Shown here piece after piece: positions 28,081-63,171 of a DNA stretch of 64,000 nucleotides. This stretch comes from Phalacrocorax aristotelis (lineage: Eukaryota; Chordata; Aves; Suliformes; Phalacrocoracidae). The stretch lies in contig NC_134279.1 in the NCBI RefSeq assembly GCF_949628215.1, forward strand, positions 84,625,517-84,689,516. The letters run 5' to 3'. How positions within the stretch are numbered: position 1 is the stretch's first letter; each line of letters opens with the position of its first letter. Position numbers and translations under genes: made by a program. A model generated the notes under the pieces. The model was not told where the DNA came from. It ran no database searches and worked only from the letters and a program-made list of their open reading frames with translations.

Positions 28081-28429
28081 TTACATTCTTAGGTCTTGTA
28101 GCTGGGCGTCTTGTGCCTCCTCCCTCTCAGTTTTGAGAGGAACTTCTTGTCACGGGCCCTGACGCTCTTCTAATCTTTTTGGATCGCGTTAGGGCCTCCT
28201 GTGTCACTGTCAGGGTTCCGCAGGTCTTGTTGCTGGATGAGCTCTTCCGTCCAGTTGTCTCTGTGTTTGCCAAGAGTGTTCTCTCGCCTCAGAGGCGCGC
28301 AGTTTGTAGTGTTTCTCATAGCGTTGGTGTGTGCGTTTTGTGAGTTTGGCTCGGAGCCGCCTTGCTGGCCGTGTAGAGTCAGGTAGGTGGCACAGCGATG
28401 AGAGCTTAGGGTTCATCTGTTGCTATGCC

Positions 28430-28855
28430 AAGGCTGTTGGGGGAAAGGTCGTACTGTCATCTTGGATTGAGTGGCCCTCCTCAGCAGGCAAGGACCGTAA
28501 TCACCGTGACGTTTTGTGGGCTCGGAGGCCGTGACCGTGGCTATCTGGGAGAGGCAGCTAGAGTTCAGCTGAGCAGATTACATCTGCAGGGTGTTCAAGC
28601 TTGTACGTGCGTAGGGCTTCATGTTTGATGTCATATGTTTGTTTTAATGGCAGGTTATAGTCGGTGTTCAGGAACAGTTAAGGTACTGCTGTGCAACCAG
28701 GCGACTTGTTTCGTATTGGTTTTGGAGATGCCAAGGGACGAGTCGTGCAGGGCGACGGAGGGGAACTGAGGGGACCGATGTAAGCGGGTGAGTTGGTGCG
28801 TGGTGTATATAGAGGGAAGATGTGACCGATGCCTCTATGACTCCATTGCTCCTTG
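28430..28855 (+). repeat. exon-module family, copy A
   Basis: A roughly 430-bp module recognised by 'gggagaggcagctagagt', 'gttcaagcttgtacgtgcgt', 'gacgagtcgtgcagggcgac' and a donor-like CGG|GTGAGT. It recurs near-identically at 59.16 kb and in more diverged form at 46.1 and 58.1 kb. In this copy the acceptor upstream of the exon core is poor (TTTTGGAG). Confidence 0.8.
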
Positions 28856-31096
28856 CGTTTGTCTTTTGTTTTGGTTTTGAAGTAGCGTAGCAATGAGCAA
28901 AGGAGGCAAGTCGAGCAAGGCAAGTGGTGATTGGTGGGCTGAAGTAGCAGCTCTTTTCTGAGGTGTTGTGTTGCTGGGGAAGGTATAAGCAACGCGTGTC
29001 GTTTGGGTGTTACGGACGGCGGGCGAGCTGAACATGGCACCTGGAAGTGATATAGGCCAGGTGGGAGGCTGTCGAGGGAAAGGAGTGCGAGACGGGGATC
29101 GGTGCGGGCAGGCTGTGGCATCGGGCAGCATCTCAGGAGGTGCCTTTTCACTTGGCTTTTTGCAGGTGCCGCTGGCAGGCTCGGAGCGGTGCTGCCGCAT
29201 GCCTATGAGAGGTCTGAGAAGGTGGGGCAGCAGCCAGCATCTAAGACCAGAGAATGCTGTGGTCCGTCGTCGAGCTCTTCAGTTTGTAGGTAACACGTGG
29301 GCCGTCTTTGGAACGGCGTATGAGCATTAGAAGTGAGCTGGGTAGTAATGAGGAAGTCACGGGGCGGTGATTTCTCACGAGCGTAACGGTAGTTTACTGT
29401 GTGTTGATACGTTTGGTGCCACAAGCGATGACGGAAGCGGGGTGTGATGCTGGAATCTGTGCCGAGCAGGTGAGCCGATGGGCATGTTCGTTTTGATGAG
29501 GGGGGTGCTCTGGAAGAGATCTGTGTTGACCTGTGTGATACTTATTGCTGGCTCTGGGTTTTTTTCTTTTTCACATGATGAAGAGGCACCTGGCCACTGC
29601 AAGAATATCCTGGTTAGCTGGTGTGTTTCTTGTTGTGAAAGGATTCATAATCTGACCCATCTGAAAGCCCCACAGTGTGACTTTGGTTAGAAAGAGATTT
29701 TGAAAAATTGAGATATTTCTTTTTCAGTGAGGTTGCATTCTATGAACTTGCCATCAGAGTGCATCTTAGAGATGATGTCTTTGTCAGTAGAACTCATCAG
29801 CACGAGACTTGCAAAGTATTGCTTTTTTTTTTAAAGATAAAAAAAATCAATGGTCCTTGCAGAGATCCAAGCACAGCACATACTCCAAAGGTTGATGGCA
29901 TTGGTAGTGCTTGGGTTCTCAGTTGTAACAGTCGAGATACCATAAAAATATGGTTCCCCTGCATGCTTCGGTACAGCCAAACGCATTAGCATATCTGCCG
30001 GTCCTTCTTGGTAGCCTCATGTATTGCAACACCGGGGATTTGATTTGCGTGGGTTTTTGTTGTGGTCTTTTTTTTTTTCCCCAAAAAAAGTAAAACCATA
30101 TCGGGGATCCCTTCACTCACCGATTCTTCTGTCATAAATGAAAGTTTAAAAAAAGCTAATGTCGTCTGATTTACGACGTGACTTGCGCTCTTTCAGCTGT
30201 AACTGCCGAGCAGATGTAGGGTACGATTTGTTAGGTGTACTTAAGCAGGTAGGTATTTGTTGTAAATATCTAGTGAGGGGCGACTGAATGTTGGGGGGGG
30301 GGGGTTTCCTGCCGGTATTTTGAGGGAGCACTCTTAAGTACTTTATTTCAGTCTCGCTTTCGACGCGCGTTTCCCTGGCAGTTCAGCAGCATCTCTTGGG
30401 CGGGGCAGCTGGGCGGACGTCCCTCCCGACTCCGTAACACGCCAAAACCCCCCAGTCACGTTGCTGCTGTGTATTTTGGAGATAGATAATCTTATGGCGG
30501 GCGTGAACGGCTGTGCGAGTTGAATGAACGCAGAAGGAAAATGGAAAGCTTTTAGAGCCTAGACGCTCGTATTGGATGTGCGTAAACACGCGCCCGCCTT
30601 CTCAGCACAAAGTGAATGACAGAGATTTATTCTTAATTTTTCACGTTACTCTTTCAAGTTTGACACGCTTCACTTCAGGCTTCATGGAGCTAGGCAGCAA
30701 GACGTGCGGCGGCAGGGCGAGGGCTGTAGCTGCTGCAGTGGATCTGTAAGTGGAGGTTCCGGTTACGGTACAACTTTGCCCCGCAGCCTCACGGGGTTAT
30801 CTCCCCGCAGCGGTGCCGTAAGGAAGGGATGAGACATTTTCCAACACCAGCCAGAGCGTTCAGTGTTACGCAAAGAATCTGTTCAAAATGGTATCGGTTA
30901 GTCTTAATACCGTTTTCAAGTGTTCCAATCACTCTAGCTTTTAAAGGATGTGTTGTGTTTTGACATGACCCATTTGCCTGGAATCTTGCTGTGGCTCAAT
31001 TTCCTTCCTATCCCTTATGTTGACTGAGCTCCTCCATTCTCTTCTGTGCTATTTTATTTACGTGCTGAAATATAGTTTGGGATTTCTGTTTTTCAG
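28856..31096 (+). other. duplicated block interior without recognised gene
   Basis: GC-moderate DNA present also in copy B. Several short frames occur on both strands, but they differ in length between the two copies and resemble nothing known. A 12-G run at 30293-30304 is shortened in copy B. Confidence 0.5.
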
Positions 31097-31175
31097 ATGT
31101 CTTCTAAGTGTCTTGTGATGCTCAAGAGATGCCCCCCAGCCCGGGTTTGCCTGCCAGTCGTTAAGCGTGGTGAAG
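31097..31175 (+). other. micro-exon-like cassette, copy A
   Basis: Acceptor CTGTTTTTCAG, then 79 bp opening with ATG (MSSKCLVMLKRCPPARVCLP, then VVKRGE), then donor GAAG|GTAAGG. The copy-B version keeps the same acceptor, start codon and donor, and differs by in-frame losses of 1 and 6 codons. This looks like a real exon, coding or not. The gene it would belong to is unknown, and the ATG directly after the acceptor may be coincidence. Confidence 0.45.
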
Positions 31176-32029
31176 GTAAGGGGCCATCCCTCTGCCTGGA
31201 GGCTCCTGGCTCTGTCTCCAGCGGGTGCCCCACAGGTGTGGCCATGAGGGCTGCCTGGTGGGGAGAGTCGGGGCCCCCAGGGACCGGGGCTGTTTGTTGC
31301 CCCGGGGAGCCTGTCCCAGCACGGGAACAGAGCGGGAGCATGGCCGAGCAGAGCCTGAGAGAGACGTGACACCGTCCTCTGGCACGCTCCTGCTTTGCCC
31401 TGGGGCGGCCGCCAGCCTGCGGACAGGGGCTGGGGGGGCTGCAGCTGTTTGGGGGGCTGCCCCACCTTTTAGATTTTAGCAGAGCTCCCCCTTTTCTGGG
31501 GGGTGGGGGGTGTGTGTGCGTACCTTTGTAAATGGAACTATTAAAGTAATGAGCTGCAGGTTGGAGCAGATTCCCTTGTTTAGTGCCCTTCTTGGGGGTG
31601 AACAAAATTGGGGGAGTCCTGGGGGGTGTGTGATGATGTCATGTGTGGGCGCCCCAGTGTCACTGGGGGAGCTAATAATGCGTCAGAGGAACAGGTGAGT
31701 GGGGGCATCATGTAGGGTTTCCCCCCCAAAAAGGGGGGTTGCAGCCCCAAAATGCCTGAAAATTCAGGGGGGCTATTACAAAACCCTCTTATTTTATATA
31801 TATTGAAATGTAATATTAATTTATAGATGTATAAAGGGATTTTGAAATAAGAACTTATCTCTCCTATATTATATAATGGATTTCAGGATACAAAAATTCT
31901 ACATCGAGATACAGGGTTTTAAAACACAAAAGTAACTCGACTGTCTATATATCTAGATCAAAAAATAAAGGAGTTTAAAGTGAAAAAAAAGGATAGATGA
32001 AGGAATTCAAAACAGAAGAAAGTCTGACT
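31176..32029 (+). other. duplicated block, G-rich then AT-rich
   Basis: Holds G-rich tracts such as GGGGGGTGGGGGGTGTGTG near 31.5 kb and a change to AT-rich DNA at 31.78 kb. No gene recognised; the same layout is seen in copy B. Confidence 0.5.
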
Positions 32030-32430
32030 AGAGCGAGCATCTACGCTTAGTGTGTGTTACATAGTCTAAGTAGATGTGTAATCTAAATAGAGGTTATATA
32101 GAGTGAAATAAGCCTAGGTATAACTGTAAGTAGATGTCTAAATAGAGAAGTCGAAAAAGATTGAAGTGTCAAAGGGTAAGTAAGCAGATAGCTAGTCTCA
32201 TTAGGTGTTTTAATACGTGTTAATATGGAAGTCTAAACAGGTATGTGTAAATAGATATTCTGTGTAAGTGTAAATAGCCTAAATAGGTGTAAGTGTAAAT
32301 ATAATAGCTAAGTCTAAACAGGTATTGTATGTAAATGTAAAATAGATGGTACATATAAAACATAGATGTACTCTGTAAGGATGTGTAAGTAGACACATAA
32401 GTGCAAATGTCTATGCTATATAAGGTTTTA
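32030..32430 (+). repeat. AT-rich degenerate minisatellite, copy A
   Basis: Built from short variants of 'gtctaaatagatgtgtaagt' with repeated GTAAATAG, GTCTAAA and TAAGTAGAT steps. It stands out as low GC inside a GC-rich block. Copy B has the same array with small differences. Confidence 0.75.
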
Positions 32431-32504
32431 AAATGCAAAGAAACCATGTTGATAGAGATGTTTATAGAGAGGATTTAAAAATTAGACACATACCTCACCC
32501 CCAC

Positions 32505-33110
32505 CCCCCAATCAACTGAAGGCACAAAAGCGCTTTCAAATGCTGCCCCTTCCCCGTTCTCCTTCTCCCATCCCGATTTGGGGCCGATTCCCCCAAATGG
32601 GGACTTCCCCCTCTGGGGCTGCGTAGGCAGCCTGGGAGCTGCTGCCAGGGCAGACAAACACCCCAAAGCCCCTGAGTCTGGGTCTGCAATGGGGGGTGAA
32701 AAACCCCAAACAGACAAAACACCCAGACAGGTTTGGGGGAAAGAAAACAATCTGGGGCTCCTGGGAAAGCCCACTCCTGCTGGGTTTGTGCAGCTGGAAA
32801 GGAGGGGGAAAAAAAAAGCGGGGGTGGGGGGCGGAACCCCGCTAACCATTCTCATGCACAAAACCAGGAGCAAAAATCACCGATTTCTGTGTTGTGGAAA
32901 GGGCCAAAGAGACCCAGGAGTGAACTGTTTGGAAAAGCAATCCCAACTTTTACTTTATGAAAAAGCAAAAAAAGCCGAAGGAACAAACCCCAGAAAACCC
33001 CAACAACAAAAAAAGCCAAGCCATCCAAACAGAAAACACCAACACCAAACGAACGCCCCAAAAACCCCAAATTGGGGAAAATTTGGGGTGAAACACCGGC
33101 AGTTTGAGGG
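32505..33110 (+). repeat. three-copy element E, copy A
   Basis: Segment starting near 'ccgttctccttctcccatcc' with 'gatttggggccgattccccc', 'ctgggtctgcaatggggggt' and an A/C-rich tail. It is present in copy B and, more diverged, at 46.7-47.1 kb. The 260-codon + strand frame across it is shifted in copy B and truncated in copy C, so protein coding is unlikely. Its A/C-rich tail could mark an old retroposed element. Confidence 0.7.
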
Positions 33111-33340
33111 GCATTGCTGGGGCTTATCTGGAGCGGATTCTCCGGAGTGGGTCAGTTATCTGGAGCGGATCATCTGCTGCAGGTTAGCCCAGGTGAGTTG
33201 CCCGTTGTGGATTATCCTGGGGGGACCCCCTGGTGTCAGTCATCCCCATGCATGTTCCCCATGGCGTGTCTGCCCAGACATGCCCCTGTCCAGCAGTGTC
33301 CGCCTCCTCCCCCGCCATCCCTCTGCGTGTGTCTGTGCCC

Positions 33341-34060
33341 TCCCAAACGCTTTCCCCTGAAATGGCCCCCCCGCATGACTTTTTTTCCCCGGTGACATCC
33401 TCCCTCTCCCTGGCCTCCTGTTCTGTGCTCGCTGCAGCCTTGTGCTTACGCAGGATGAGCAGAGCAGGGTCCTGGCAGTGCAGAGGCGAGGCGAGGCGCT
33501 GCCAAGCCAACGAAGCCCAAGGCTGAGCAGTGCACAACTCCTTTGCAGGTCAGCCACTGGCACCTGGTCTGCCTGGCTGCCCTGTGCCCTGACGCACAGC
33601 TGCCCCCCTCACCCCAGGCAGCCTGCCTTCAGAAGGGCAGCTGTGTTCCCCTGATTGATTTTCTTCTTTAACCCTCTAGGACCTGTTGACTTGCTGCTCT
33701 CCCTGTCACAGCCCTGACGCCGCAGGCCTACAGCAACTGACGGGGCTTACTCCGGGGGGGGTGGGGGGTGGGAAAGGGGACCTTTCTCCCCAGGTCGTTT
33801 GTGCTGCTTCTCCTCCCTAGGGCGTGGGGTGGGGGTGAGTGGGGCAGGAGGGAGGACAGTAATGGCCACCTGATTTTTAAAGCAGTCGAGACGGAAGGAC
33901 TAAAATGCTCGAGGCACTTCGGTGCTGGGCGGTGCGGAGGCAATGACTGACGCTGCTGGGGCTGCAGGAGTGGGGAAGGTGCAGAGAAACATGAGCTCTG
34001 CGCACGCAGTAACAGTTCCGTTATCCCGGCGAACGTCACCCAGAGCCGGCGCGGGTCTTG
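33341..34060 (+). other. GC-rich spacer, partly shared with 47.16-47.56 kb
   Basis: From about 33.70 kb ('cccctgacgccgcaggcctaca'-like start, then 'gcttctcctccctagggcgt') the sequence is alignable with the third copy of the duplication. Acceptor-like sites CTTTGCAG near 33.55 kb and TTTAACCCTCTAG near 33.68 kb are seen, but no convincing exon. Confidence 0.5.
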
Positions 34061-34189
34061 CCCCAGAGAAGAGTCACGGATATGATCCCGCTGCCCCCGG
34101 GCTCGGCTACTGCAGCCGGGAATCGTGCATTCACACTGGCGATGGTCTGTCCCTGCTGCCACCGTGAGGCCAAACTTCGGTACTGCACT

Positions 34190-35215
34190 CGGAACAGACG
34201 CATGCGCAGTGGCGACGATGTGTCACTGCTCGCTGCTGCCACCGAGCGACCGAACCGCGGAACAGCAGGGAGGAGCTGCGCTACCCTGGTAGAGATTTCC
34301 ACCCGCCCCTTACCCGATCGCGGCAGGCACCGAGCGATCAAAACCGGCTACTGCAGACGGGCAGCCACCCGTTCCCGAGGGTGAAGTTTTCCTCTGGTCG
34401 CTGCTGCCACCGTGCAAGAAGATTCTGGTACTGCATCCAAGCAGTTCCGTATGCGCGGTGGCGCTTTATTTTCTGCCCCCTACTTCCACCGACCGCCCAA
34501 ACCCTCGTACTGCAGTTGGGCAGCCGCGCATGCGCAGTGTCCACCTTTTTTCTGCTCGCTGCTTCCACCGTGCGACCAAACCGCGGTACTGCAGGCGGGC
34601 AGCCGCGCATGCGCAGTGGCGCCTTTTTCTGTTCTCTGCTGCCACCGTGCGATGAAACCGCGGTACTGCAGGCGGGCAGCCGCGCATGCGCAGTGGCGCA
34701 TTTTCTGCTCTCTGCTGCCACCGTTCGACCAAAATGCAGTATTGCAGGTGGGCAGCCGCGCATGCGCAGTGGCTCCGTTTTTTGTTCTCTGCTGCCACCG
34801 TGCGATCAAACCGCGGTACTGCAGGCGGGCAGCCGCGCATGCGCAGTGGCGCCTCTTCTCCTCTCTACTGCCACCGTGCGACCAAGCCGTTGTACTGCAG
34901 GTGGGCAGTCTCGCATGCGCAGTGGCGCCATTTCTGTTCTCTGCTGCCACCGTGCGACCAAACCGCGGTACTACAGGTGGGCAGCAGCGCATGCGCAGTG
35001 GCGCCTTTTCTGTTCTCTGCTGCCATCGTGCGACCAAATCGCGGTACTGCAGGTTGGCAGCCGCGCATGCGTAGTGGCGACTCTTTCTGTTCTCTGCTGC
35101 CACCGTGCGATGAAACCGCGGTACTGCAGGTGGGCAGCTACGCATGCGCAGTGGCGCCTTTTTCTGTTCTCTGCTGCCACCGTGCGATCAAACCGCGGTA
35201 CTGCAGCCAGCAGCC
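34190..35215 (+). repeat. 76-77 bp minisatellite carrying NRF1 sites
   Basis: Tandem unit read as TGCTGCCACCGTGCGA, then CCGCGGTACTGCAG, then GGGCAGCCGCGCATGCGCAG. Motif starts at 34525, 34604, 34681, 34757, 34834, 34910, 34986, 35062 and 35139 give spacings of 76-79 bp. The first five are perfect matches to the NRF1 consensus YGCGCAYGCGCR; the other four each have one mismatch. Degenerate units with two-mismatch sites lie at 34197 and 34446. The unit is CpG-rich. The 312-codon frame through it stays open only because the repeat lacks stops in all frames, since the unit length is not a multiple of three. NRF1 is a methylation-sensitive activator of CpG-island promoters; binding here is inferred, not shown. 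Confidence 0.9.
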
Positions 35216-35219
35216 GTGC

Positions 35220-35885
35220 ACGGGCTGTACCGACATTTTGCCGCGCTCACTTCTCCACGCCACTTAGTGACACCCCCCCGCTACCTGGTGACGGCACCGT
35301 GGGGGCCGGAACCGTGTAGGCACAGCCCTTAGCGACAGGTGTTGACCCCTTGCGATAGCCGGGTGAGGGTGGTGCTGATACCCCTCGCCACGCTCTTAGC
35401 AACGGGCCCCGCCCCCCGCGATGGGCGGGCGGGCAGTCTGATGTCTGACCCACCTGGCCCCACCCACCTTTGCGACAGGCCCCGCCCCCTGGCGAGGGCC
35501 TGGTGGGGCGGGGCCGTGCTCCTGTGCTCCCCAGCACCCCCAGGTAGCAACAGGTCCCACCCTCTGGTGACAGCCTGGGGGTGTTGCTGGTGCTGCCTGG
35601 CCCCACCCTCCATAGCAACAGGGCCTGCCCGTGGTGATGGTTCCAGGGGCATTGCCAGAGTCTCTTTGACACACCCCCTTAGCGACAGGAACCACCCCCT
35701 GGTGATGGTCAGGGGGCGGTGCCGGTGGCAGGCTCCACCCCCTGGCAACGGCCCGGGGGGGGCAGTACCAGCAGCTCCTCGTAATGACAGGCCCCACCCC
35801 CTGGCAACGGCTCGGGGGGCGGTGCCGGCTCTCTCCCATTAGCGACAGGCCCCGCCCCCCGGCAACAGCCCGAGCCTGTGTTTGC
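35220..35885 (+). repeat. irregular GC-box / half-X-box minisatellite
   Basis: Roughly nine units of about 57-76 bp (one spacing near 100 bp) share TTAGCGACAGG, CCCCGCCCCC, and a GGYGAYGG or GGCAACGG step. GC boxes occur near 35405, 35480 and 35850. The half X-box GGCAAC lies at 35744, 35803 and 35861, with AGCAAC at 35398, 35546 and 35614. Sp/KLF and RFX families bind such motifs, but here only half sites are seen. It follows directly on the NRF1 array and precedes a candidate first exon. Confidence 0.75.
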
Positions 35886-36207
35886 TCCGCTCGGGGTGCT
35901 CGGTTTGGGTGTTTTCTCTCCCCCCTCCCTCCCGTGCCAGGAACTTCAGGCGGCTCTCGTACGGCTCCCGGGGCCTTCATCCCTCGGGGGGGCTCGGCCC
36001 GCCCCTTTCGCGGGCGCTGTGGGAAGGGCGGGGGCGGGGCCCGGGGGTCGAAGAGCCCCAGCCGGGGCTCTGGCAGCTCTTGCTGCCACTGGGCTCCTCT
36101 GGCGTCGGTGCTCCCGTGTTCCCTCGGGCGGTCGCAGCTTTGGGGCTGTCTCAGCCCCCCGGGCAGGCGTTCTCTGGCGTTTAGAGAAGCGGAGGCGTCG
36201 CCTGAGG
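35886..36207 (+). promoter_or_regulatory. CpG-island promoter and candidate first exon
   Basis: Very CpG-rich DNA without a TATA box, ending in the donor GAG|GTAAGG. Placed directly after the NRF1 and GC-box arrays, it is a plausible transcription start region for a + strand transcript. The exact start is not visible. A CpG-rich minus-strand frame overlaps but has no splice support. Confidence 0.5.
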
Positions 36208-36478
36208 TAAGGATTCCAGAGCTTGGCACTCTTTGGCGGCATCTGTACTAGAAAGGTCCCTTGTGGCCTGCTTTGCTTTTTTTCTCCCGGGATGCTGTTT
36301 TGGGCACTGAGGGGGCGGTGAGACAGTTTAGTGGTATGGTGTTCTGTTTGGGGTTTGGTTTTTGCTTTGCTGGTTTTTTTCCCCTCATGAGATCATTTTA
36401 TTGTGCTGCTGCAATTCCTGTCTTTACTGAACCCGGAACCTTGGGGGTTTTCACTAGTTGTGCCGTTCACTGTTTCAG

Positions 36479-36819
36479 GTGTTGCCTTGGCCTCTCAACA
36501 GCCGTGGCACAACCTACAGCGATGCTGCCTCTCCAGGCCCCCGCAGGCCCCGCTTTCTTGTCCAGCCAGGCGGGAAAGCGTGGTTGTTGCAGAAACAGCT
36601 ACGCCCTGCGACTCCTCCTCAGGTTGTTGGCTCGGCCCCAACAGCGTACAGGCTGCTGAGGTCACCGCCTCCGCGCGGGACGCAGGCGGCCCGGAGAGCT
36701 TTACCCCGCGCCATTTCCGTCCCCTGTGGGCAGCAGCGGAGCTGCCGCCGCTTCAGGCGGCCGCTTTCTCGAGGGCGAGGAGCTGGGACAACAACGGGCC
36801 GCTGCAGACTCTGGTCAGG
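36479..36819 (+). other. exon-like cassette, 341 bp
   Basis: Bounded by acceptor CACTGTTTCAG and donor CAGG|GTAAGA on the + strand, 270 bp after the previous donor. Two of three frames are open throughout (one contains VTASARDAGGPESFTPRHF), which is common in GC-rich DNA, and neither resembles a known protein. It could be exon 2 of a transcript starting near 36 kb. Confidence 0.4.
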
Positions 36820-36879
36820 GTAAGAGGCTGTTCCCTGGGGAGCCGGCGCAGGGGGAGCGGAGGTACGCACGGGCACTTG

Positions 36880-39800
36880 TCGGTGCCCCTGACCAGTAAA
36901 GGGAAGGTTAAATTGTTAGAGTGCAAATAAATACATTTTATTTAGGGAGGAGTCGTGACTAAATTTAATCGCACCTATTACTGAACAAACCAGGCAGTCA
37001 TTATTCCTAATCTGTAATTAAAAAAAAATAAAGGCAGTCCTTTTTTATGCCATAAATAGAGTTGCGAGTCATTAATAGCTCAATCTAAATACAGCTGTTA
37101 CTAAATCAACTGCAGGCATTAACGACTCCTGATCAGAAACAAAATAAGGAAATTTTAGAATCTAGAATGAAAATTGACCCGGAAAGCTAAATTGGGAGCG
37201 GGTAATACTGAAATTGTAACAGGGCTGTTAGAAAGTTCAGAGGCAGCGACAGCTCCTGCTTCCAACCCAAGCAGTAAACGAAGCTTTAGATTCTTAAATG
37301 AAGAGAAATAATGGTGAGCTGTTAAGCAGTGGCTGGGTTCAAGCGTAGGCATTAAGAAAATTTGCAGGTGCGGGTGATTCCTGACCAGAACTAACAATTC
37401 CAGAAGATTTAGATTTAAAATTACAAAGCTAATGGAGTGCCACAACCGCCCGGATGTAACTGCAGCCGCTTTGGGGGAATGCCCCCCCAACCACCGCTAT
37501 TAATTACTGCCAAGGAGAGCGAAAGTGAAAGTAGAAGCAGTGCAGGTGAAATGGGAGCAGTACGCTTTTCCTAAGTCATCTCTTCGTGTCAGGAGAGGAA
37601 AGAAAATGGAAAGAAGATGTTTGCAGGGGGTCTGTGCTGGGTTACTTGCGCATCTCTTCCATGCATCACTGAGGAGACATTTAGCTCGTGTTGGGCGCTC
37701 GCAGGTGGAGACAGGGCGAGCTGGAGGCAGGATCGGTGCTGGCACTGATAAAGGGATGGGCAACGAGCTGAGAGAAGAGGGGGCAAGGGCTGAAAAAGGG
37801 TCACCAGTTCTGCAGGGAAGGCAGCGGGATGTGACTTGGCAACCGCTCTGAGGAGTGCAGGGTCATTCGCTGCGATGAAGTCCGGGTCTGTGGCTGGCCC
37901 GGAGAGGCAGCAGAAATCCCAAACCCTTTGCAGGGGTACCGGCCAGATTAGGGCAACACCTGAACAGTAAAACCATTTAGGGGAAGCAGAGCTGGGCTGC
38001 ACCGCGTGGCCAACCTCCCTCTTCTCCGTGAGTCCCAAAGGGGCAGGTCTAAGAATGTGCTGAGAATTCATCCCTTGCGCTAAAAATGAGACATAAGTAG
38101 CACCCACCCGTGAATTTTATTTTCTCTCTCGCTCTGCGGCTCCTGCCTGCTTGTCTCTCCTCAGCGCTCACCTGCACCCGTGCTCGGATGGGGCAGCTGA
38201 GGGAAGGTGCTGCCATCTCCCCAGCCCCGGCGGACCGCCCCTCAGCTGTGTCCTCTGTCAGGGAGCGTCGTCATCTCTCCTGCCTCCCAGAGCGTGTCCT
38301 GTAGTGGCAGACGCGCGGGCTTTTCCCTGCACGCGCATACGGGAAGGGAAGCACAGTGAGAGCTGGGCTTGTCAAAGAGTAACGGGGGTGGTGGGAAGCG
38401 TAGCTAGAACCGGAGAGCTACAGCGCAAAAGCAAAGCGGACGGGACACAAAAGTAAAATGGTGCACAGGAATGCTGAGGCGAGAACTCCCGCAGCACACA
38501 GGAAATCAGTGTCAGAATCTATTTTCTTCTGACTGCCAAATTAAAAATAATGGCACGCTTTGCAACGCTAAGCTCGCTCTAATCGTCTGACCTGTTTATT
38601 TACAACCCCCCACCGCCCCCAGCACACCGTTCAGCCTCCTCAGCCTGAAATGCCTTGTTTTCCTTCTTTTTTTTTTTTTTTTTTATGACAGGGCAACTTC
38701 TGTTCCCGAGGTGGTGCCTACGGTACAGCTATCTCTTCGAAGGCAGTTTGGTTTAGGTCAGAGAATGTTTAGCCTGGACTGAATCAGCCTCTGTTTCTGT
38801 TTCTGGAAATCATCGGTCCTGTGCATAAAGCCCGGAAAAAAGGAAATATGAACCAAAGGACGTGGGGCCTGCAGGGGTAGGAAAATATTTGAGAAGAGGT
38901 TCAGTGGGGAAATGATTGTTTGTCTGTGGGGCGTCCAGGCAAGCAACCCAGCTGCTAGAAAGCGGCGCTGTCCCCAGGATGGCCTTGGCGGTCCCGTGGG
39001 AGTCGGGGGAACAAGGACAAGGCAGGGTGAAGCATCTGACCTGCCGTGTGGAACGTGATTGTACAAAGCACGTGTGATGCACTGCAAGTTCATTTGTTTA
39101 AACTGTGAGTTAAAGAAGGTGTGCAGTTGCTTTGTAAACAGCCGACGCTCTAAAGCTACACCCATCTAATTGCTAGCTGTATTAAATCTATTGTATTGCT
39201 GTTTCTGCATTAAAAAAAGAACAACCCAACACACCTATGTAAGGACTTCTAAGTACAATGGAAAACCACTGTTTAACGCGTGGCATGTGTGGGTTGTTTT
39301 TTTGGGGTGGGGTGTATGAAAAAACCTGCGAGAGACACACACACATACGCACATGTAATGTTTAGCGCTCACCTAAACCCAAAAAAGAAAATCCACTCTT
39401 TATTTTGCAGCATTAGCATTAGCTTCCAGCGCACAGCCTGAGCGCGCACCTCTGCTCTCACCATCTGCTCCCTCTTCAACCGTGTGTGGCTGTCATCATC
39501 AGCTTGCACAGGCTTTCCTCGTGCAAGTTTCCGCGACAGCTTACGAGAAGGCAGGGAAACAAACCCAGCAAGACGTGTAGTGCCTTCCTCTATGGGCTCC
39601 ATCCAGCCTTTTTTAAAATGAGCAGAAAAAAAATCTGCTGCTGCCTTTACCCTGACTGACTCTTACAGAGAGCATCTGACTTGACCCGCAGCAAAGCGAT
39701 GCCCCAGGCAGCAGCACGTATTGGTGCGGACCGCGGTTTCACCCACCTGTTTTACTGCGCCGGTCCTTTCCCACGGCCGATGCCGCAGACGTGGCGCAGC

Positions 39801-41450: not shown

Positions 41451-42120
41451 CCGCCGTGCCTGCGGCCAGGGCCCCGCGGCCGCCGGCCCCTTCCTCCTCT
41501 GCCCGCTCCCGGCGCGGACGGCTCGGGATGTGTCACGAGGGGCAGCCCCGTTCAGCCGCTCTCGGAGGGCGCGCGGCTCTGCCCGGCCGTGACCGGGGCC
41601 CGCAGGGGTTTCTCGCTCGCTCGCTCGCCCCGAAAGGAGCTGGCCCCGAGCCGGCGCGCCCCCCCCGCCCGGCCCACGGCGCCCTCGCGTGCTGAGCGCG
41701 GCCCGGCCAGCAGGGGGCGCTGGCGCTCAACGGCTGGGCGCGGGGGCGGTCCGGCGCGGGGGCGGGGCCGGTGGGGGCCGGTCCTTCCGGCCGCCCTCTA
41801 AGGGCCGCCCCGCGGGGCTCCGGCTTCCGGTGGCGCAGCGCGGCGGAGCGGAGGTGGGAGCGGTGCGTGGGGCGGCTGCGCCGCGAGGTGTCTCTTTGCG
41901 GTGCCGGGGCCCCTCTGCGGCCCGGCGTGGGAAGCCCGTGGCCGGCGGAGACTGCTCGGAGCTGGGCGGGGAGCGCCGCGGCAGTCCGACCGCAGGCAGC
42001 CATCCCCTGCGGTGGCCGCCAGCTCCTCAGGACTCCTGGAGGCCTGGCAGCGCCCGACCCTCGCCTGCGGCAGCCGCCTGGGAGAGCAGCGCGGCCGTGG
42101 CCAGGGGCCGGAGAGCGCTG
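41450..42120 (+). promoter_or_regulatory. CpG-island promoter and candidate first exon
   Basis: Extremely CpG-rich and TATA-less, with ETS-type CTTCCGG elements near 41.79 and 41.82 kb, GC boxes (GGGGGCGGGGCC) near 41.76 kb, and the strong donor GCTG|GTGAGTGAG at the right end. Transcription probably starts around 41.8-41.9 kb on the + strand. Open frames on both strands follow from composition. Confidence 0.6.
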
Positions 42121-42140
42121 GTGAGTGAGTTCGGGCAGCG

Positions 42141-42471
42141 GTGGAGGCTCCGTGCGGGCCCGGGCCCGGGCCGGGGTGGTGGGGGGGGCTCCGTGCGGGC
42201 CCGGGCCCGACCCCGGGGTGGTGGGGGGGGCTCCGTGCGGGCCCGGGCCCGACCCCGGGGTGGTGGGGGGGGCTCCGTGCGGGCCCGGGCCCGACCCCGG
42301 GGTGGTGGGGGGGGCTCCGTGCGGGCCCGGGCCCGACCCCGGGGCGGTGGGGGGGGCTCCGTGCGGGCCCGGGCCCGACCCCGGGGCGGTGGGGGGGGCT
42401 CCGTGCGGGCCCGGGCCCGACCCCGGGGCGGGGGGGGTGGTGGTGGGGGGCTCCGTGCCGGGCCCGGGCCC
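42141..42471 (+). repeat. 42-bp G-rich minisatellite at start of intron
   Basis: Eight units beginning CTCCGTGCGGGCCCGGGCCC and ending GGTGGTGGGGGGGG. Units start at 42148, 42189, 42231, 42273, 42315, 42357, 42399 and 42451, so spacing is 41-42 bp except the last (52). The middle units are almost identical, which suggests recent or ongoing homogenisation. It begins about 20 bp after a splice donor, with the G-run on the presumed nontemplate strand. Because 42 is a multiple of three, long repetitive frames open on both strands. Confidence 0.95.
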
Positions 42472-46139: not shown

Positions 46140-47560
46140 GCTGCGCGCCGAGATGGGTGTAGGTGAAACTGCTGTTGCGCCTGCAGCTGTGCTCGCAGGG
46201 ATGCTGGGTGGCTCTGCATCAAACCGGCGAGGTGCGCGTGGACCTCCGTCGGGCTGCGCCCTGGGTGCGCGAGCGTGCGGTGTTTTTGCTGTTCCGGCTT
46301 GTATGTGCGAGGGCTTAACGTTTGATTTAATGCATTTCCTTTAACAGCAGGCTGTAGTTGGGCTCTAGACGGTATTCCTACGTGGGCACAAGAGCTGTGG
46401 AATGGTTAAGCTGTTGCTGTGCCTCCAGGTGATTTGTCAGTAACACTGTTTTTCCAGGTGCAGATGGATGAGTCGTGCAGGGCAACGGAGGAGAGCCCAG
46501 GGTAGCGCTGTAAGAAGGTGAGTCTGTGTAGTACTGGAGGGAAGATGTGACTGATGGCTATAGGGCTCCATTATGGGTTTTACTCTTTTTTTTTTGTGAT
46601 CCGAGGGCGCTAAGCGATGAGCCGAGCGTGATCTGGGCCCTGGAGGTGAGTCAGGCAAGGTGACCGGTGCTTGGTGGGCTGGAGTAGGTGTTCTTTTTCA
46701 GGTTATTCAGGGTTTTTTCTCCTTCTCTTCACTTTCCCATCCCAATTTGGGGCCGATTCCCTCAAACGGGGACTTCCCCCTGTGGGGCTGCTTATGCAGC
46801 CTGGGAGCTGCTGCCTGGGCACAAAAATACCTCAAACCCCCGACTCTGGGTCTGCAATGGGGGGTGAAAAAACAGAAAGAATTCTGGTGGAAAGAAAACA
46901 ACTTGGGGCTTCTGGGAAAGCCAACTCCAGCTGGATTTGTGCAGCTGGAAAGGGAAAAAAAGGGTGGTGGTGGGGAAGGAACAACCACCTAAAAGCACCC
47001 ACCAACCATTCTCATGCACAAAACCGAAAGTGAAAATGACCATTTTTTGTAGGGTAAAAGCACAAAAAGTCCCCACAGAACTCAGTAGTTTGGAAAAGCA
47101 ACCCCAATTATTACATTATGTAAAGAAGGCGGGGAAAAAAAGAAAACCAAAACAAAACCCTATCACAACCCTGATGCCACGTGCCTACAAGCAGTTCCTG
47201 GGGCTTATTCTGCGGGGGTGGGGAACCCAACCTTGTTCCCCAGGTTTGCTGTGCTGCTTCTCCTCCCTCGGGCATGGGGGGGGGCAGTGGCATGGACAGT
47301 AGCAAGCACCAGATTTTTTTAAGCAGTTGAGAGGAAAGGACAAATGCTCGAGACGCTTTGCTGTTTGGTGCAGAGGCAATGAACGGTGCTGCTGGGGCTG
47401 CGAGGGGGAAAGGTGCAGAGGAATAGAAGCTCTGTGGATGCAGCCAAGTTATGGTTTCTGGATGGTATTAATCGAGAAGAGTAATTCAGATAATGCCGCT
47501 GCCCAGCAACCAGAATTGGGTACTGAGCCCAGGAGCCGCGCACGCACGGTGGCATCCCTG
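46140..47560 (+). repeat. duplication copy C, internally deleted
   Basis: Three pieces align in order with copy A: 46.14-46.58 kb with the exon module, 46.72-47.13 kb with element E, and 47.16-47.56 kb with 33.70-34.06 kb. The DNA between them in copy A (about 3.7 kb and 0.6 kb) is absent. Divergence from A and B is clearly higher than between A and B, so this is an older copy. Its first piece is closest to the 58.1-kb module. Confidence 0.75.
46458..46517 (+). other. exon core of module family, copy C
   Basis: Sixty bases between acceptor TTTTTCCAG and donor AAG|GTGAGT, containing the family core GATGAGTCGTGCAGGGCAAC. One frame is stopped by TAG near the end; another is open and Arg-rich. 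Best kept as a possible noncoding exon. Confidence 0.4.
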
Positions 47561-47584
47561 TGATCCACATTGCTCTCTCCGCAG

Positions 47585-47648
47585 GTAACAGCCCTGCGAT
47601 GCTGCAGTGCCTGCGAGGTGATGCCGCCGTGCTCGTTGCTGCTTCCTG
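47585..47648 (+). other. exon-like cassette, 64 bp
   Basis: Acceptor CTCTCTCCGCAG and donor CCTG|GTAAGG on the + strand enclose 64 bp with an open frame containing VTALRCCSACEVMPPCSLLL. No similarity recognised. Splice scores look good by eye. Confidence 0.35.
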
Positions 47649-47879: not shown

Positions 47880-48440
47880 GAGTTACCCGGGAGCTGATAG
47901 AAGGGAAGAGGGAAAGGAGGAGGAGGATGATGACCCCTTCCCCCTACCCAGGGCGCAGAAGGTGGCCGACTCCCCAGCTCACCAGAGCTCCCCCTCAGCC
48001 TCCCCTGGCCCCCCTTGCCCCGTGCGCCTGCCCCCAGCTCTGGCACGAGCGAGCTAGGCTAAGTGTCTAGGAAGCCTCATCTCGTAAGAGCTGTAAGACA
48101 CCCATGTATTCTCTTTAGGTGGAGGACGACCTAGAGTCTGGAGCTGCAGAAGAGGCAGGGAGGAGAGAAGGGGAAAGAAGCATCCGAACGGCTAAATTGT
48201 GCCAGCAGCGCTGAGAGCGAGAGTCGCGGTGAGTCCTGGGCCACTGGGGCCCCGTTGCCTCTCTTGTGCATCCTGGGCCCTCCCTGTCTCTCCCCTGGCC
48301 CCCTCTCTTTCCTTACCTGCTGCAAAATATTTTTTTTTGCGCCCCCCCGCACCTTCTTTCTCCATCTCACTCTGAGTGGCTCCCTGCCTCCCGGTCTTTT
48401 CAGTCCTCCCTCTCTCTGTCCTGTAGCCTGTGGCTACTTT
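47880..48440 (+). repeat. P-Q duplication, copy 1
   Basis: Piece P ('gggagctgatagaagggaag' to 'cccccagctctggcac') and piece Q ('gagcgagctaggct' to the pyrimidine array) match 52.44-52.61 kb and 53.20-53.62 kb. In copy 1 they are contiguous; in copy 2 about 590 bp with a different exon lies between them. Confidence 0.85.
48119..48228 (+). other. 110-bp exon-like cassette, copy 1
   Basis: Acceptor TATTCTCTTTAG, purine-rich core (GAAGAGGCAGGGAGGAGAG, enhancer-like for splicing) and donor GCG|GTGAGTCC. The second copy at 53.27 kb keeps the same length and both splice sites. All frames contain stops (VEDDLESGAAEEAGRREGER, then a stop at CGC-TGA), so it is probably noncoding or an untranslated exon. 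Confidence 0.5.
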
Positions 48441-50640
48441 TTCTTTCTCCGACTCTCTCTGCCTGGCTCTGGCTCTGGCTCCGTTTTTATTTTTTTATTC
48501 CTCCTGCTCTGTCCTGTAGCCTGTCGGTATTTTGTCTTTCTCTGGCTCTCTTGGTCTGACTCCCTGTGTTACCGAAAAACGTGGTAAAATCGGAAACAAC
48601 TCAACGCCAATTTAGTATTGAAGAGCAGGCGTTCTTTATTCACGGCGCCAGACGCACGGGGGATCGCTCCTCCTGGCGTGCGTACCTGACACACCTTTCC
48701 CCTACAATTTGTAGATCAAACTTTTACGCATTCATACATATTCATTATTGTCCTGTCTACTGATCGGTACAAACTTGCTTGTTCCGTATGTAAATTACTG
48801 CGCAGGCTCGGTGGTGGTCCGTGAGTCGGTGGTCGCGATCTCCCCCTGCCGGAATTGCCTTTTACCTTCTTGGCTCTTAATCTTGGCAGCCTTGGCTAGT
48901 TTTCTCAGTCCGCTACACGAAACCGCGTTTTGTCATCCTTTTCTGACAGAAGCACGTTGTCTGTTGTTCTGTTGACATTAACGATCGCCTAGTGACTAAA
49001 ATGCAGATCGACAGATCCGCTGATTCGTACGCTCCATGTTCCCGTAATGGAACACCGTCTCTGGTTGGTTGATTTCATCGCTTTGGTTACACCTGTTGCT
49101 GTTGTTCAGCGTCTTCTTTTTTGGCTTTGTGTGATTCTCTCTGTGATTCTGTTTTTCTCTGCCTCGCTTTCCGCAGCTCCCCGTCCCTCACTTTGAATGC
49201 CCGTTATCCTTCACCAGCTCACTCTCCCTTGGTTGCCATCCCCGTTTCTGAATTCCTCCTGCTTTGCCACGTAGCCCGTGACTTTTTTCTTAATCTCTCT
49301 CTGTCTGCCTCAACGCTCCCGCCGCGCTTTTTAATTCGTCTGCTCTGTACCCTGCTACTGTTCTTGCCTTTCTGAGTTCTTCTCTGTCCAGCTCCCTTTC
49401 CCTATTCGTGAACTCCTGTTCTTCCTGCAGCCACCGCTGTTCCCTGGGATCTCCGTCTCTCTCTGTCCAGCTCCCTGTCCCTAGGTTTTAATTCCTGCCT
49501 CTGCCCGCTGTAGCCCATCTAGATTTTTCTGTCGGCCTCTCTCTCTGTCCGGCTCCCTCTCTCTGTTCTAATTCCACGTTCTCTGTCACGTAGACCCGTG
49601 CTATTTGTTTGTCCTCATCTCTCTCTGTCCAGCTCCTTGCTGCGATGTTTTATTTCTTCCCTCTCTGTCTGTCTTTGTAGCCCATTGCTGTTGTTGTGGT
49701 TTTTTGTTTTTTTTTTTCCCCCCACTTGTTTCTTCATTTGTCTCTGTCTGCCTCCCAGTGCCTGATCTTTAATTCCTCCTTCCCTGTTGGGCCGCTGTTC
49801 CTTTTTTCCATTCTACGTTGTGTTCTCTTTGGTCTCCTGTTCTTATTCATCGGTTCCCTCCTCGCCGCCCTGTGGCTTGTCCCCATTTTAGTGTTGCCTC
49901 CCTCTCCCTCTCTCTGGCTTCTTGCCCCTGGTTTTAAAATTCCTCCCTCTCTTCTCTCTTCCCTGTCGGCCGTGTGATCTTCAGCCTTTCTCCATCTCTT
50001 TCTGCCCAGCTCTCTGTGTCTATTCATTAATTCTTCCCTCTCTGCCCTGTAGCCTGTAGCTTTTGTCCTTTCTCCATCTTGCTGTCTCTGGCTTCCCCAC
50101 GACCCTGTTTTAGAATTGTTTCTCTCTTCTTTCTGTACGCATTGCAATTCCTTTTGCTCCCCATCTCCCTTTGTTTTGGGTGTTTTTTTTTGTTGTTGTT
50201 TTTTCTGGCTCCCTGTCCCTAATTCTTAATTCTCTGCCTTCTCGTGCTCTGTACCACGTCGCCCCATGGTTTGTTTTGTGGTGTTCCCTCCCCGGCCCCT
50301 TCCCTCCGTCGTTGGCTGTCTCGGCTCCCTGTCCCCGTGGCTTCATTCTTCCCTTTCTGCCCTGTTCTTGTCGCTTATCTTGTCTTTCTCCATCGCGCTC
50401 GGTCCAGCTTCCTGCCCCTATTCTTCTTTCCTCCCTCGCTGTCGTGCTGCCTGCCCCAGGTTCTTTGTGCGTCTCCAGCCTGCTCCTCTTCCTCCTTTGT
50501 TGGTCTGTGTCCTGCTCTTCCCTCTTCCTGCTGCCTCTCTTCCCCTCTCTCTGCTGCTTTTATCTCCACCTCCGTCAGGCTCCCTGTCCTTCTCTGGCCG
50601 TCCTGTTCCCTGCCTCGTGCCTTCTCACTACACGCACACA
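48360..50640 (+). repeat. pyrimidine-rich degenerate minisatellite
   Basis: Repeated phrases CTCTCTCTGTCC, AGCTCCCTGTCCCT, TTTTAATTCCTCC and CCTGTAGCC return every 80-110 bp for about 2 kb, with the + strand mostly C/T. The array is split by an LTR insertion. Three long overlapping + strand frames near 50.2-50.9 kb and a Glu/Arg-rich minus-strand frame near 49.7-50.1 kb reflect composition. A truncated copy of the array start lies at 53.53-53.64 kb. Confidence 0.8.
48567..49091 (-). mobile_element. solo LTR of an endogenous retrovirus
   Basis: A 525-bp segment of different composition sits inside the pyrimidine array. It begins TGTTACC and ends GGTTACA (imperfect inverted termini, TG...CA form) and is flanked on both sides by CCTG, a 4-bp target duplication. 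On the minus strand an AATAAA lies about 70 bp before the LTR end (48635-48640), which sets the orientation. There is no internal coding sequence and no second LTR, so the provirus was lost by LTR-LTR recombination. A 4-bp duplication is usual for gammaretrovirus-like elements. Confidence 0.8.
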
Positions 50641-51555
50641 CGCCCCCCCGCCCCCGTCCAGCCGGATGCCGCTCTTCTCTTCTCTCCTGCTACTGTCCTG
50701 TGCCCTGCTCATCACCTTTGGTGGCCTCCCCCTCTGCCCAGCAGCCCGTTGCTCCAGGAGCCGGGCGACGGACGGTCCGTTCCCTGCCAAACCAGGACAA
50801 GCGCGTGCCGTGGCTTAGCCCCAGCTGGCAACTCTGCACCAGGGAGCTGCTTGCTCGCTCCACCCTCAGTGGGCTGGGGGAGAGAGCTGGAAGGGTAAAA
50901 GCGAGAAAAATCATGGGCTGAGATCAAGACTGTTTAATAGGTAAAGCAAAAGCTGTGCGTGGAAGCAAAGCAAGGAATTAATTCACTCCTCCTTTTCGGT
51001 GGGCAGGTGTTGAGCCACCTCTGGGAAAGCAGGGCTCTGTCATGTGTAACGGTTACTTAGGGAGAGAAATGCTGTAGCCCCCCCCAAGGACTCCCCCTTC
51101 TTCCCCCAGCTGTGTGTGCTGAGCATGATGTCAAATGGTATGGAATATCCCTTTGGTCAGTTAGCTGGGAAAGCTTTCCCAGCTGTGTCCTCTCCCAGCC
51201 TACTTGCTGGTGGGGCACTGAGAGAACCAGAAGAGGCCCTGACTGTGGAAGCAGTGCTCAGCAAGAACCAAAACATCTCTACATTATTAACGGTGTTTTG
51301 AGCATAAATCCAAAACGTATCCCTTCCTAGCTGCTGTGGAGAAAATGAGCACTATCCTAGCCAACAGCAGCTCCGTGCGGCTGCGGCAACGGCGGCCGAG
51401 GTGGCCTTGGGGCAGGGGGAGCGTTGGGGACCCTGAGCCACGAGTCGCTCCTGGGACTTGTTACGTGCGCGCCTGCACAAACACCTGCCCTCTCCTTTGC
51501 CCTCAGGGCTGCGTTTGCGCTGCCTTTGCGTGGGGCAAGGGGCTGTGATGGAGCC
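50641..51555. other. spacer without recognised gene
   Basis: Mixed composition, a short run of Cs near 51.08 kb, and no repeat family or splice-bounded exon that convinces. Confidence 0.35.
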
Positions 51556-51795
51556 CAGGGGAGGAGGTGGTGCACTGTGGGGGTGAGGGGAGGGGGCCCC
51601 CCGTTGCTGCTGAGCCTCAGCTGTGGGCGGGGTCTGGATGGAGGGGCCCCAGGTGCGGGCAGTGGGGCTGGCGGTGCCGGCTCCTCCCTGGAAAAGGGGT
51701 GGTGCCCTGCTCCGGGGGGCCAGTGTGAGCCGAGGGCGGGGCGGGGCGGAGCTGTGGCCGAGCGTCAGCGGGCTGCGACTGTAGCGAGGGAGGAG
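51556..51795 (+). promoter_or_regulatory. CpG-rich candidate first exon
   Basis: G- and CpG-rich DNA with GGGCGGGGCGGGGCGGAGC (GC boxes) near 51.74 kb, ending in the donor GGAG|GTGAGCG. No TATA box. Probably a + strand start region, some 200 bp upstream of the ZNF143-type array. Confidence 0.45.
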
Positions 51796-51993
51796 GTGAG
51801 CGGGGGCTGGGTGGTGGAGCGCTGCGTCCCGGGTCAAGCCCCGAGGAGGGCTGCGGCGGGGCAGCGCCGGGTCGGAGCCGGAGCGGGCGGTGGGGAGAGC
51901 GAGGCTGTGCTGAGGGCTCGGTGGGGCTTCCGGGCGCATCGGCGGGAGGGACGGTGGCCCGCAGGGTCCGAGAGCGGGGAGGGCGGGCTGGCG

Positions 51994-52326
51994 GCGTGCC
52001 GGGAGCTGTGGTGGTGTGGCGCGCGGCTGCCGGGCGGCCGTGTTGTGCCGCAGAGCATGGCGGGAGCTGTAGTCCTCGTGGGGCGCGGCTGCCGGGGCGG
52101 CCGTGTTGTGCCGCAGAGCATGGCGGGAGGTGTAGTCCTTGTGGCGCGCGGCTGCCGGGCGGTCGTGTTGTGCCGCAGAGCATGCCGGGAGGTGTAGTCC
52201 TCGTGGGGCGCGGCTGCGGGGCGGCCGTGTTGTGCCGCAGAGCATGGCGGGAGCTGTAGTCCTGGCGCAGTGGCTGCCGGCCCTGTCACGTGGTTCGCCG
52301 GGGCGTGGCGGGAGGCGCGGTCTTCC
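51994..52326 (+). repeat. 61-63 bp minisatellite carrying ZNF143/THAP11-type sites
   Basis: Four strong copies of GCATGSCGGGAGSTGTAGTC start at 52055, 52118, 52180 and 52242. Read on the minus strand they give GGACTACASCTCCCG, which fits the promoter consensus ACTAYRNNNCCCR of the ZNF143 (Staf)/THAP11 element, including the adjoining CATGC. Degenerate versions lie at 51994 and near 52303, so the array holds about six units. Between motifs the unit reads CGCGGCTGCCGGGCGGCCGT and GTTGTGCCGCAGA. Such elements normally occur singly in promoters close to the start site. Binding is inferred. Confidence 0.9.
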
Positions 52327-52438
52327 GGCGCTCGGGTGCCGGGCGGCCGTGCCGCGTATGGTAGGCGCGCTGTGTTTTTGGGGTTGGATTCGTGTTGATT
52401 TCTGGGGGCTTGCGGGTGCGGCCGCTCCCCGAGAAGCG
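52263..52438 (+). promoter_or_regulatory. promoter core and candidate first exon
   Basis: Right after the ZNF143-type array comes an E-box (TCACGTGG, 52287-52292 core), an ETS-like CTTCCGG near 52322, and the donor GAAGCG|GTGAGTTCC. An ATG at 52358 opens exactly 27 codons to the donor (MVGALCFWGWIRVDFWG...), but none of the nearby downstream cassettes gives a long continuation except the one at 57.8 kb, so coding is uncertain. Confidence 0.5.
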
Positions 52439-52822
52439 GTGAGTTCCCCGGGAGCTGACAGAAGGGAAGAGGGAAAGGAGGAGGAGGACCTTTTCCCCCT
52501 GCCCAGGGCGCAGATGATGGCCGCCTCCCCGGCTCACCGGAGCTCCCGCTTAGCCTCCCCTGGCCCCCCCTTGCCCCGTGCGCCTGCCCCCAGCTCCGGC
52601 ACCTCCCCTGAAGCGTGCTGCGTAGCCCTTGGCCGCCCCCAGGCCCTGTCGTGAAGGCAGCGAGCCGGCCCTCAAGCGCACTGGATTCCCCCTCGGCGCA
52701 GGGGCCCTTAGCAGTAGTGCGGGGAAGGGGTGGTGTGTCCAGAAGCCCGTGCGCAAGGAGAGGCTTTGGTCAGGGTCGATCGATGGTAATGACGGTCGCT
52801 GTTCCTTCTTTCCCTCTCCCAG

Positions 52823-53014
52823 AGACCGTGCTGAGGACGTGGTTGTCTGTCCTTCCCCCGGGGATGCCGTCGACTGCGGCCGTCTCAGGCTTGCGTGGCT
52901 TCTCTCTGCCCGGCTTTGCCATCCTCGCAGCGCCGGGGCGAAAAGGGACACACAGAGCCCTTCCCGGCTGTGGACAGGAGCTGCCTCGGCTGAAGCTGGA
53001 GACGCCAACGAAAG
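52823..53014 (+). other. 192-bp exon-like cassette
   Basis: Acceptor CTTTCCCTCTCCCAG and donor AAAG|GTAAAG enclose 192 bp, a multiple of three, with two open frames (one reads RAEDVVVCPSPGDAVDCG, the other SVLPPGMPSTAAVSGLRG). No known protein. A partial copy with the same acceptor lies at 53.785 kb without the matching donor. Confidence 0.4.
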
Positions 53015-53272
53015 GTAAAGCAGAAGAAACTGAAGGCGCTCTGGCTGCCAGCTGCCTTCCTGCTGCAGGCAAGAGAGAGCCTGTCCCTGCAGGTGAGGGA
53101 GGAAGGATCCCCCTTCATAGCCCGCAGCGGGACAGGCCACCAACGTGCACCGCAGGGTCTGTACGCGTAACCCGGAGTTGGGTACGGGCGTGTAGGGCAC
53201 GAGCGAGCTAGGCTACGTGCCTAGGAAGCCTCATCTCGTAAGAGCGGTAGGACACCCACGTATCCTCTCTAG

Positions 53273-53382
53273 GTGGAGGATGGCCTAGAGTCTGGAGCTG
53301 CAGAAGAGGCAGGGAGGAGAGGAGGGGAAAGAAGCATCTGAACGGCTAAATTGTGCCAGCAGCGCTGAGAGCGAGAGTCGCG
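53273..53382 (+). other. 110-bp exon-like cassette, copy 2
   Basis: Twin of the 48.12-kb cassette: acceptor TATCCTCTCTAG, the same purine-rich core, donor GCG|GTGAGTCC and identical length. Substitutions between the twins do not favour any frame, and frame 1 stops earlier here, which argues for a noncoding exon kept for splicing. Confidence 0.5.
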
Positions 53383-53642
53383 GTGAGTCCTGGGCCACTG
53401 GGGCCCCGTTGCCTCTCTTGTGCGTCCTGGGCCCTCCCTGTCTCTCCCCTGGCCCCCTCTCTTTCCTTACCTGCTGCAAAATTTTTTATTTGGTTTTTTT
53501 TTTTTGCGCCCCGCCCCCCCCCCCCGCACCTTCTTTCTTCATCTCACTCTGAGTGGCTCCCTGCCTCCCCGTCTTTTCAGTCCTCCCTCTCTCTGTCTTG
53601 TAGCCTGTGGCTACTTTTCTTTTCTCTACCTCCCTCTGCCTG

Positions 53643-61815: not shown

Positions 61816-61873
61816 ATGTCTAAGTGTCTCGTGATGCTCAAGAGATGCCTGCCGGTCATTAAGCGTGGTGAAG
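61816..61873 (+). other. micro-exon-like cassette, copy B
   Basis: Acceptor CTGTTTTTCAG, then 58 bp opening with ATG (MSKCLVMLKRCLPVIKRGE), then donor GAAG|GTAAGG. It is 21 bp shorter than the copy-A version through two in-frame differences. Confidence 0.45.
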
Positions 61874-63105: not shown

Positions 63106-63171
63106 TTTAAAATGCAAAGAAACCATGTTGATAGAGATGTTTATAGAGAAGATTTAAAAATTAGACACACA

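Follow-up and report, generated by a model that had tools for sequence, protein, structure and literature searches.

A tandem array of NRF1-type palindromes in a ~31-kb cormorant macrosatellite: a candidate amplified promoter module

Nine NRF1-type palindromes lie within 34525-35150 of the window (the whole 64,000-nucleotide stretch of Phalacrocorax aristotelis DNA that was analysed). Five of them are exact YGCGCAYGCGCR palindromes (starting at 34525, 34604, 34681, 34757 and 34834) and four have one mismatch (starting at 34910, 34986, 35062 and 35139), and the spacing between them is 76-79 bp. TRF places the + strand array of 77-bp units that carries them at 34451-35206 (period 76, 9.8 copies, 85% matches), with the palindrome being the least diverged 12-mer of the unit (below), and decayed units with two two-mismatch sites in the window span precede it on its 5' side at about 34156-34450. 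With the consensus letters that were given with the original observation, the two strands of the window contain 19 NRF1 matches, 18 of which are in the array and one of which is at 47537; 0.59 matches are expected and 100 shuffles gave a maximum of 4, so chance is excluded as the source of the sites. The regularly spaced palindromes and the decayed upstream units reported in the earlier note are thus both present, the former far above chance. The CpG observed/expected ratio is 0.94-1.07 in the bins from 34000 to 35249, compared to 0.51 for the whole window.

The window spans the boundary of a macrosatellite, such that a flank is followed by a tandem repeat. The flank piece that was compared with the genome (15000-15900) has a single full-length match there, and the sequence at 28081-33340 is found again at 58817-64000 with 94.5% identity, which sets the repeat length at about 30.7 kb. 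The first unit, adjoining the non-repeated flank, therefore occupies 28081-58816 (+ strand), and by sequence comparison the next one starts at 58817, fills the window to 64000 (+ strand) and runs on into the neighboring locus L011. A 901 bp piece of the unit (38000-38900) gave 297 first-look candidates genome-wide; all 40 that were scored are full-length and 98-100% identical, and the other 257 are first-look candidates only. Within each listed contig the scored copies are all on the same strand, and with its head-to-tail, homogenised, multi-kb units the repeat is, judged from the assembly, a macrosatellite. By our estimate the genome has roughly 300 such units, each about 31 kb long, or some 9 Mb in total, and the 77-bp unit itself has at least 385 matching places in its own genome. 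The single-locus promoter of the earlier note must therefore be abandoned, since the array belongs to a repeat family and is one of many, each within a ~31-kb tandem unit. The window ends about 75 kb before the end of its 84.8-Mb contig, and among the matches listed seven of eight clusters (on seven large contigs) are no more than 250 kb from a contig end, while cluster C16 is about 3.1 Mb inside its contig. These contig ends only suggest a terminal location, because contigs may break within a repeat. No runs of two or more TTAGGG or CCCTAA were found in the window and loci L001-L028, and three contig-end pieces contain 0-1 TTAGGG each; these contigs end within the repeat, so a more distant telomere is possible. 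A 23-mer core of the unit has no match in two non-bird collections (viral_contigs and genome_contigs).

The copies fetched at the outset were mostly chosen through a match to the array, and we also assembled a check set of seven units, from seven contigs unlisted for the array, that were picked by a match to the unit body alone. In six of these seven the array is present, and their 4-kb pieces contain 12-21 perfect sites each (some arrays extend past their pieces). The seventh, L037 (C84:542500-546500), has the core block described below in a more diverged form (90%) and has no array in the preceding 2.3 kb, and so constitutes a natural array-less control. We have taken the six independent arrays and the one exception of this set as balancing each other. 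In 16 arrays, whose spans were set by hand and one of which (L008) is cut by the end of its locus, there are 247 perfect, 37 one-mismatch and 34 two-mismatch sites. Array length ranges from about 14 to about 47 units, and the window array, located at the edge of the repeat block, is shorter than the other 15. In many arrays the spacing patterns of both ends are shared and the middle is variable, which is expected if arrays grow and shrink through internal exchange.

Downstream of the array on the + strand is a recurrent block (35973-36206) with GC boxes, a putative first exon whose 3' end is CCTGAG, and a splice-donor-like GAG/GTAAGG, with a putative intron from 36207. The GC-box block is present in 15 of the 18 sequences of the first copy set and in all seven body-picked units, and the CCTGAGGTAAGG donor sequence is present in all nine rows displayed from the first set and, again, in all seven body-picked units. 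Among 22 other copies that span the junction (15 from the first set, namely 14 with the block plus L011, and the seven body-picked units; L004 and L008 end short of the junction and are not counted), the array adjoins the GC-box/donor block in 20 (14, including two near-copies on one contig, and six body-picked), and in those 20 the gap between the last array-unit remnant and the block is 41-43 bp. The two exceptions are L011, which has the array without the block and goes straight from the array to the equivalent of position 37796, and L037, which has the block without the array. The window copy is itself unusual: its core block is about 3-4% diverged from those elsewhere, and some 0.7 kb of extra GC-rich degenerate repeat (35240-35972, + strand), absent from that place in the 20 adjoining copies, separates its array from the GC-box block. 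This extra repeat holds recurring TAGCAAC/GGCAAC-type stretches, which we presume to be RFX-like half-sites.

Is the unit transcribed beyond the putative first exon? Protein search with a window ORF returned five proteins, including uncharacterised models from Phalacrocorax aristotelis, P. carbo and Mycteria americana, and a second search added gene models from Spheniscus, Ciconia and Morphnus. The spliced P. aristotelis model LOC142064310 matches four blocks of the window in order on the + strand (match spans 41804-42127, 46452-46523, 47582-47647 and 52807-53016), each of which is followed by a GT donor. They correspond to a CpG island 2 exon at 41804-42120 (donor GTGAGT at 42121; 88.9% to LOC142064310 residues 17-124), and to three exon-like blocks on the same strand: 46452-46517 (donor GTGAGT; 79% to LOC142064310, with an in-frame stop in the cormorant frame), 47585-47648 (between ..ccgcag and GTAAGG; 91%) and 52823-53014 (between ..ctcccag and GTAAAG; 94%). 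Blocks related to the last of these occur in gene models of cormorants, storks, a penguin and an eagle. The ordered blocks with their donors point to a transcript that runs on the + strand from CpG island 2 and is spliced. No protein model that starts at the NRF1 block was found (LOC142064310 begins at CpG island 2), and a protein search with the ORF at 36391-36927 found nothing. A protein-coding array or unit was considered and set aside, as none of 20 window ORFs exceeded the Pfam cut-off (one weak match has an E value of 0.055), and the 45 best results of a codon scan across unit copies included no convincing exon. An RNA gene or rDNA spacer was likewise rejected, since no Rfam family reached its gathering score in the window and a tRNA search found none there.

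The last exon-like block lies in a nested subunit (48042-53642, + strand) that sequence comparison shows to have a period of about 5.1 kb and to end in 447-bp direct repeats. Twelve consecutive 5.0-5.1-kb copies of this subunit lie in L012-L018 (C4:84699517-84764361), up to the contig end. All 12 carry the 52.8-kb exon block, one of them with an indel, and their codons differ at 10 synonymous and 15 non-synonymous places (one shared change accounts for 12 of the latter), too few to gauge constraint on this exon.

The array units are numerous enough to ask whether the palindrome diverges more slowly than its surroundings, a comparison that the earlier note had made part of its refuting test. 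From the 16 arrays 371 units were extracted, with spacings restricted to 72-82 bp and with L003, L004, L005 and L007 (overlaps or near-copies) and L001 (which repeats the window) left out; 266 of the 371 are at least 80% like the consensus, and 190 distinct units remain after removal of duplicates. In these 190 the NRF1 12-mer has a mean mismatch of 0.016, against 0.100 outside it, so that the motif does diverge more slowly and the refuting outcome is not seen at the level of sequence. The NRF1 12-mer has the lowest mismatch of all 77 rotations of the unit, and random sets of 12 sites reach its value in 0.00019 of draws. With a second, gapless anchor (172 units) the values are 0.026 and 0.111, and the motif is the lowest of the 42 windows ranked. 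Ranked by the share of exact matches, it ties at 0.68 with the 12-mer two bases along for first place among 234 distinct units and comes second among all 371 (0.63 vs 0.64 for the same overlapping, two-base-shifted 12-mer). The earlier note's statement that the motif is among the best-kept parts of the unit is therefore correct, as is its remark that CCACCG and GTACTGCA are kept too; mismatch is low at both, although at CCACCG it is low partly because that stretch was used for locating the units.

The variants can also be sorted by the number of units that share them. Variants found in a single unit number 6 in the motif and 27 elsewhere (1.2 times the outside rate per site), those in two or three units 6 and 42 (0.77 times), and those in four or more units 2 and 60 (0.18 times); singletons versus variants in at least four units give a Fisher p of 0.02 in this small, McDonald-Kreitman-like table. 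New variants in the motif thus appear to arise at a normal rate and seldom to spread, which suggests that the 12-mer is kept by selection. Of the two motif variants shared by at least four units, the commoner changes C to T at the first base (10 of 190 units) and fits the Y of the NRF1 consensus; the other changes A to T at the last base (6 units) and does not fit its R. Recent changes, counted between nearest units, are mildly depleted in the motif (21 vs 34.6 expected, or 0.61). As array units share ancestry these site statistics are not independent and are best used as guides. With its palindrome match and preferential conservation, the 12-mer is a predicted NRF1 promoter element.

The history of CpG methylation in the germ line can be approached by comparing transitions at CpGs with those at other C/G positions between nearest copies. 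In the array the CpG-transition excess is 1.2 (38/2009 vs 67/4282, p=0.34; restricting the count to pairs that differ by one change gives 1.94, p=0.06). It is 8.9 in the unit body (80/2332 vs 45/11638; 10.8 without the diverged copies, the window and L009), 62 directly upstream of the array and 6.7 in a third stretch. The core block has an excess of 9.5 (10/560 vs 4/2132) that comes mostly from the two diverged copies (without the window and L009 there are 3 vs 2 events, p=0.064), and this excess means that some copies may have a methylated promoter. When changes were counted more crudely, relative to the window, CpG islands 2 and 3 gave 2.4 and 4.4 and nine other unit parts 4.4-35 (one further part has no ratio), so a low excess is not confined to the array, and other islands may be partly protected. 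Could selection on the motif alone produce the low value in the array? Array CpGs outside the motif are hardly more changed than other sites there (0.114 vs 0.098), and motif selection by itself thus fails to explain it. The CpG observed/expected ratio is 0.90-0.99 in the 16 arrays and 0.51-0.85 in 12 other unit parts. The simplest reading suggested by these values is germline methylation of the unit body but not of the array. The methylation sensor of the earlier note finds indirect support here, in the excess of 1.2 inside the array against 6.7-62 in the four stretches outside it.

We consider it somewhat probable, from the sequence comparisons above, that the array is an amplified upstream promoter or enhancer module, probably NRF1-bound, that heads a macrosatellite transcription unit of ~31 kb, repeated in tandem hundreds of times. 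The expanded promoter of the earlier note survives in the array/GC-box/donor anatomy of 20 of the 22 copies and in the motif-specific conservation, and is lost as a single locus. NRF1 would bind the array sites in the germ line, its binding would protect the array CpGs from the methylation that the unit body would carry, and the array would drive a spliced + strand transcript that may be non-coding or weakly coding. For growth of the array, sites bound in germ cells may suffer tandem-duplicating insertions as human NRF1 sites do (PMC8559717), unequal exchange would spread the duplicated sites, and units that lose the site would seldom spread.

The chief alternative is a neutral minisatellite, in which a fragment of an ancestral promoter was caught in the macrosatellite and resized by unequal exchange, with its motif kept by chance or homogenisation. 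The shared end spacings and variable middles of the arrays, their widely differing copy numbers, the additional conservation of CCACCG and GTACTGCA, the mere mild depletion of recent motif mutations (0.61 of expectation) and the lack of an array in one of the seven body-picked units all fit this idea. Against it, the motif register is the lowest of 77 rotations and of 42 second-anchor windows, singletons are undepleted and spread variants depleted, and the array, CpG-rich as it is, shows no significant CpG-transition excess; we regard neutrality as rather unlikely. Another reading is that the array is mainly an NRF1 sink or hub that tunes free NRF1 in germ cells, with promoter activity secondary. 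The numbers, 247 perfect sites in 16 arrays and 297 candidate units, make the sink of the earlier note more plausible: they point to a site total in the thousands, which approaches the figure given for human NRF1 (fewer than 10,000 binding sites; PMC8559717). A pure sink needs no GC-box/donor block, but one lies right beside the array, and we hold this reading to be quite improbable. We give as little weight to the palindrome being kept for structure or recombination (as Z-DNA-prone sequence) or for another GCGCATGCGC-binding factor: CGCGCATGCGCA does alternate purine and pyrimidine, and array lengths do differ, but conservation peaks on the 12-bp NRF1 register, and the commonest variant (C to T) obeys the NRF1 Y even though the second commonest (A to T) violates the R.

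A bolder version of the promoter-module reading, which we hold to be doubtful, is that the macrosatellite is selfish or domesticated and, through germline NRF1-driven tandem duplication, has accumulated nearly perfect NRF1 sites, an estimated several thousand of them, that its methylation-proof promoters maintain germ-cell transcription of the repeat and jointly titrate NRF1, and that the array of ZNF143-like sites described below is a parallel case.

How do these arrays compare with known systems? The nearest functional parallel in the sources available to us is the human TERRA promoter, where, according to PMC6600276, 61-29-37 subtelomeric repeats include a 29-bp repeat with a pair of putative NRF1 sites; binding of NRF1 to them is methyl-sensitive, rises on demethylation and drives a non-coding RNA. 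Both are CpG-rich short tandem repeats with NRF1-type sites, but TERRA has two imperfect sites per 29-bp repeat where the cormorant has one mostly perfect palindrome per 77-bp unit, and, unlike the TERRA promoter as described there, the cormorant array sits inside a ~31-kb macrosatellite. A telomere-adjacent TERRA promoter proper, which would adjoin (TTAGGG)n and be transcribed into it, was rejected, as the pieces examined contain no telomere-repeat runs. The nearest structural parallel, likened by description and not by sequence, is another clustered bird tandem repeat, the chicken Z-macrosatellite, which according to PMC7397634 forms clusters at several chromosome ends, is mostly rich in 5mC and H3K9me3, and is transcribed in lampbrush loops; it is at chromosome ends, whereas a terminal position in the cormorant is only suggested by contig ends. 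In the human germ line, NRF1 sites are hotspots of motif-duplicating insertions (PMC8559717), a process that would explain the origin of the array. Both cases involve tandem duplication of NRF1 motifs, but the human insertions are of 5-20 bp at scattered sites, while here whole 77-bp units are duplicated, up to about 47 per array and in many arrays. No description of NRF1-site macrosatellites was found in the literature searched, which is weak evidence as subscription papers were mostly outside it.

The array thus looks like an extreme case of germline NRF1 motif duplication, and it shows how a macrosatellite could gain a strong promoter of its own. The arrays are also a natural copy-number series of candidate NRF1 promoters, from about 14 to 47 units in the arrays measured, in near-identical surroundings and with at least one unit lacking an array, and long reads from one bird could show how the number of homotypic sites affects protection from methylation and transcription.

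The unit contains other short tandem arrays. A 42-bp GC-rich array of 7 copies (TRF; 42146-42437, + strand) directly follows the CpG island 2 exon, and the left end of C4 and the right end of C35 stop near this island. On the - strand, 52000-52263 is a 62-bp array of 4.3 copies with four sites, found by TRF and site scan, that we take to be ZNF143/SBS-like; it is a second amplified promoter motif in the macrosatellite unit and recurs in L012-L018. In the flank, near 22.9 kb, there is one - strand tail repeat that is presumably CR1-like and fits a bird genome.
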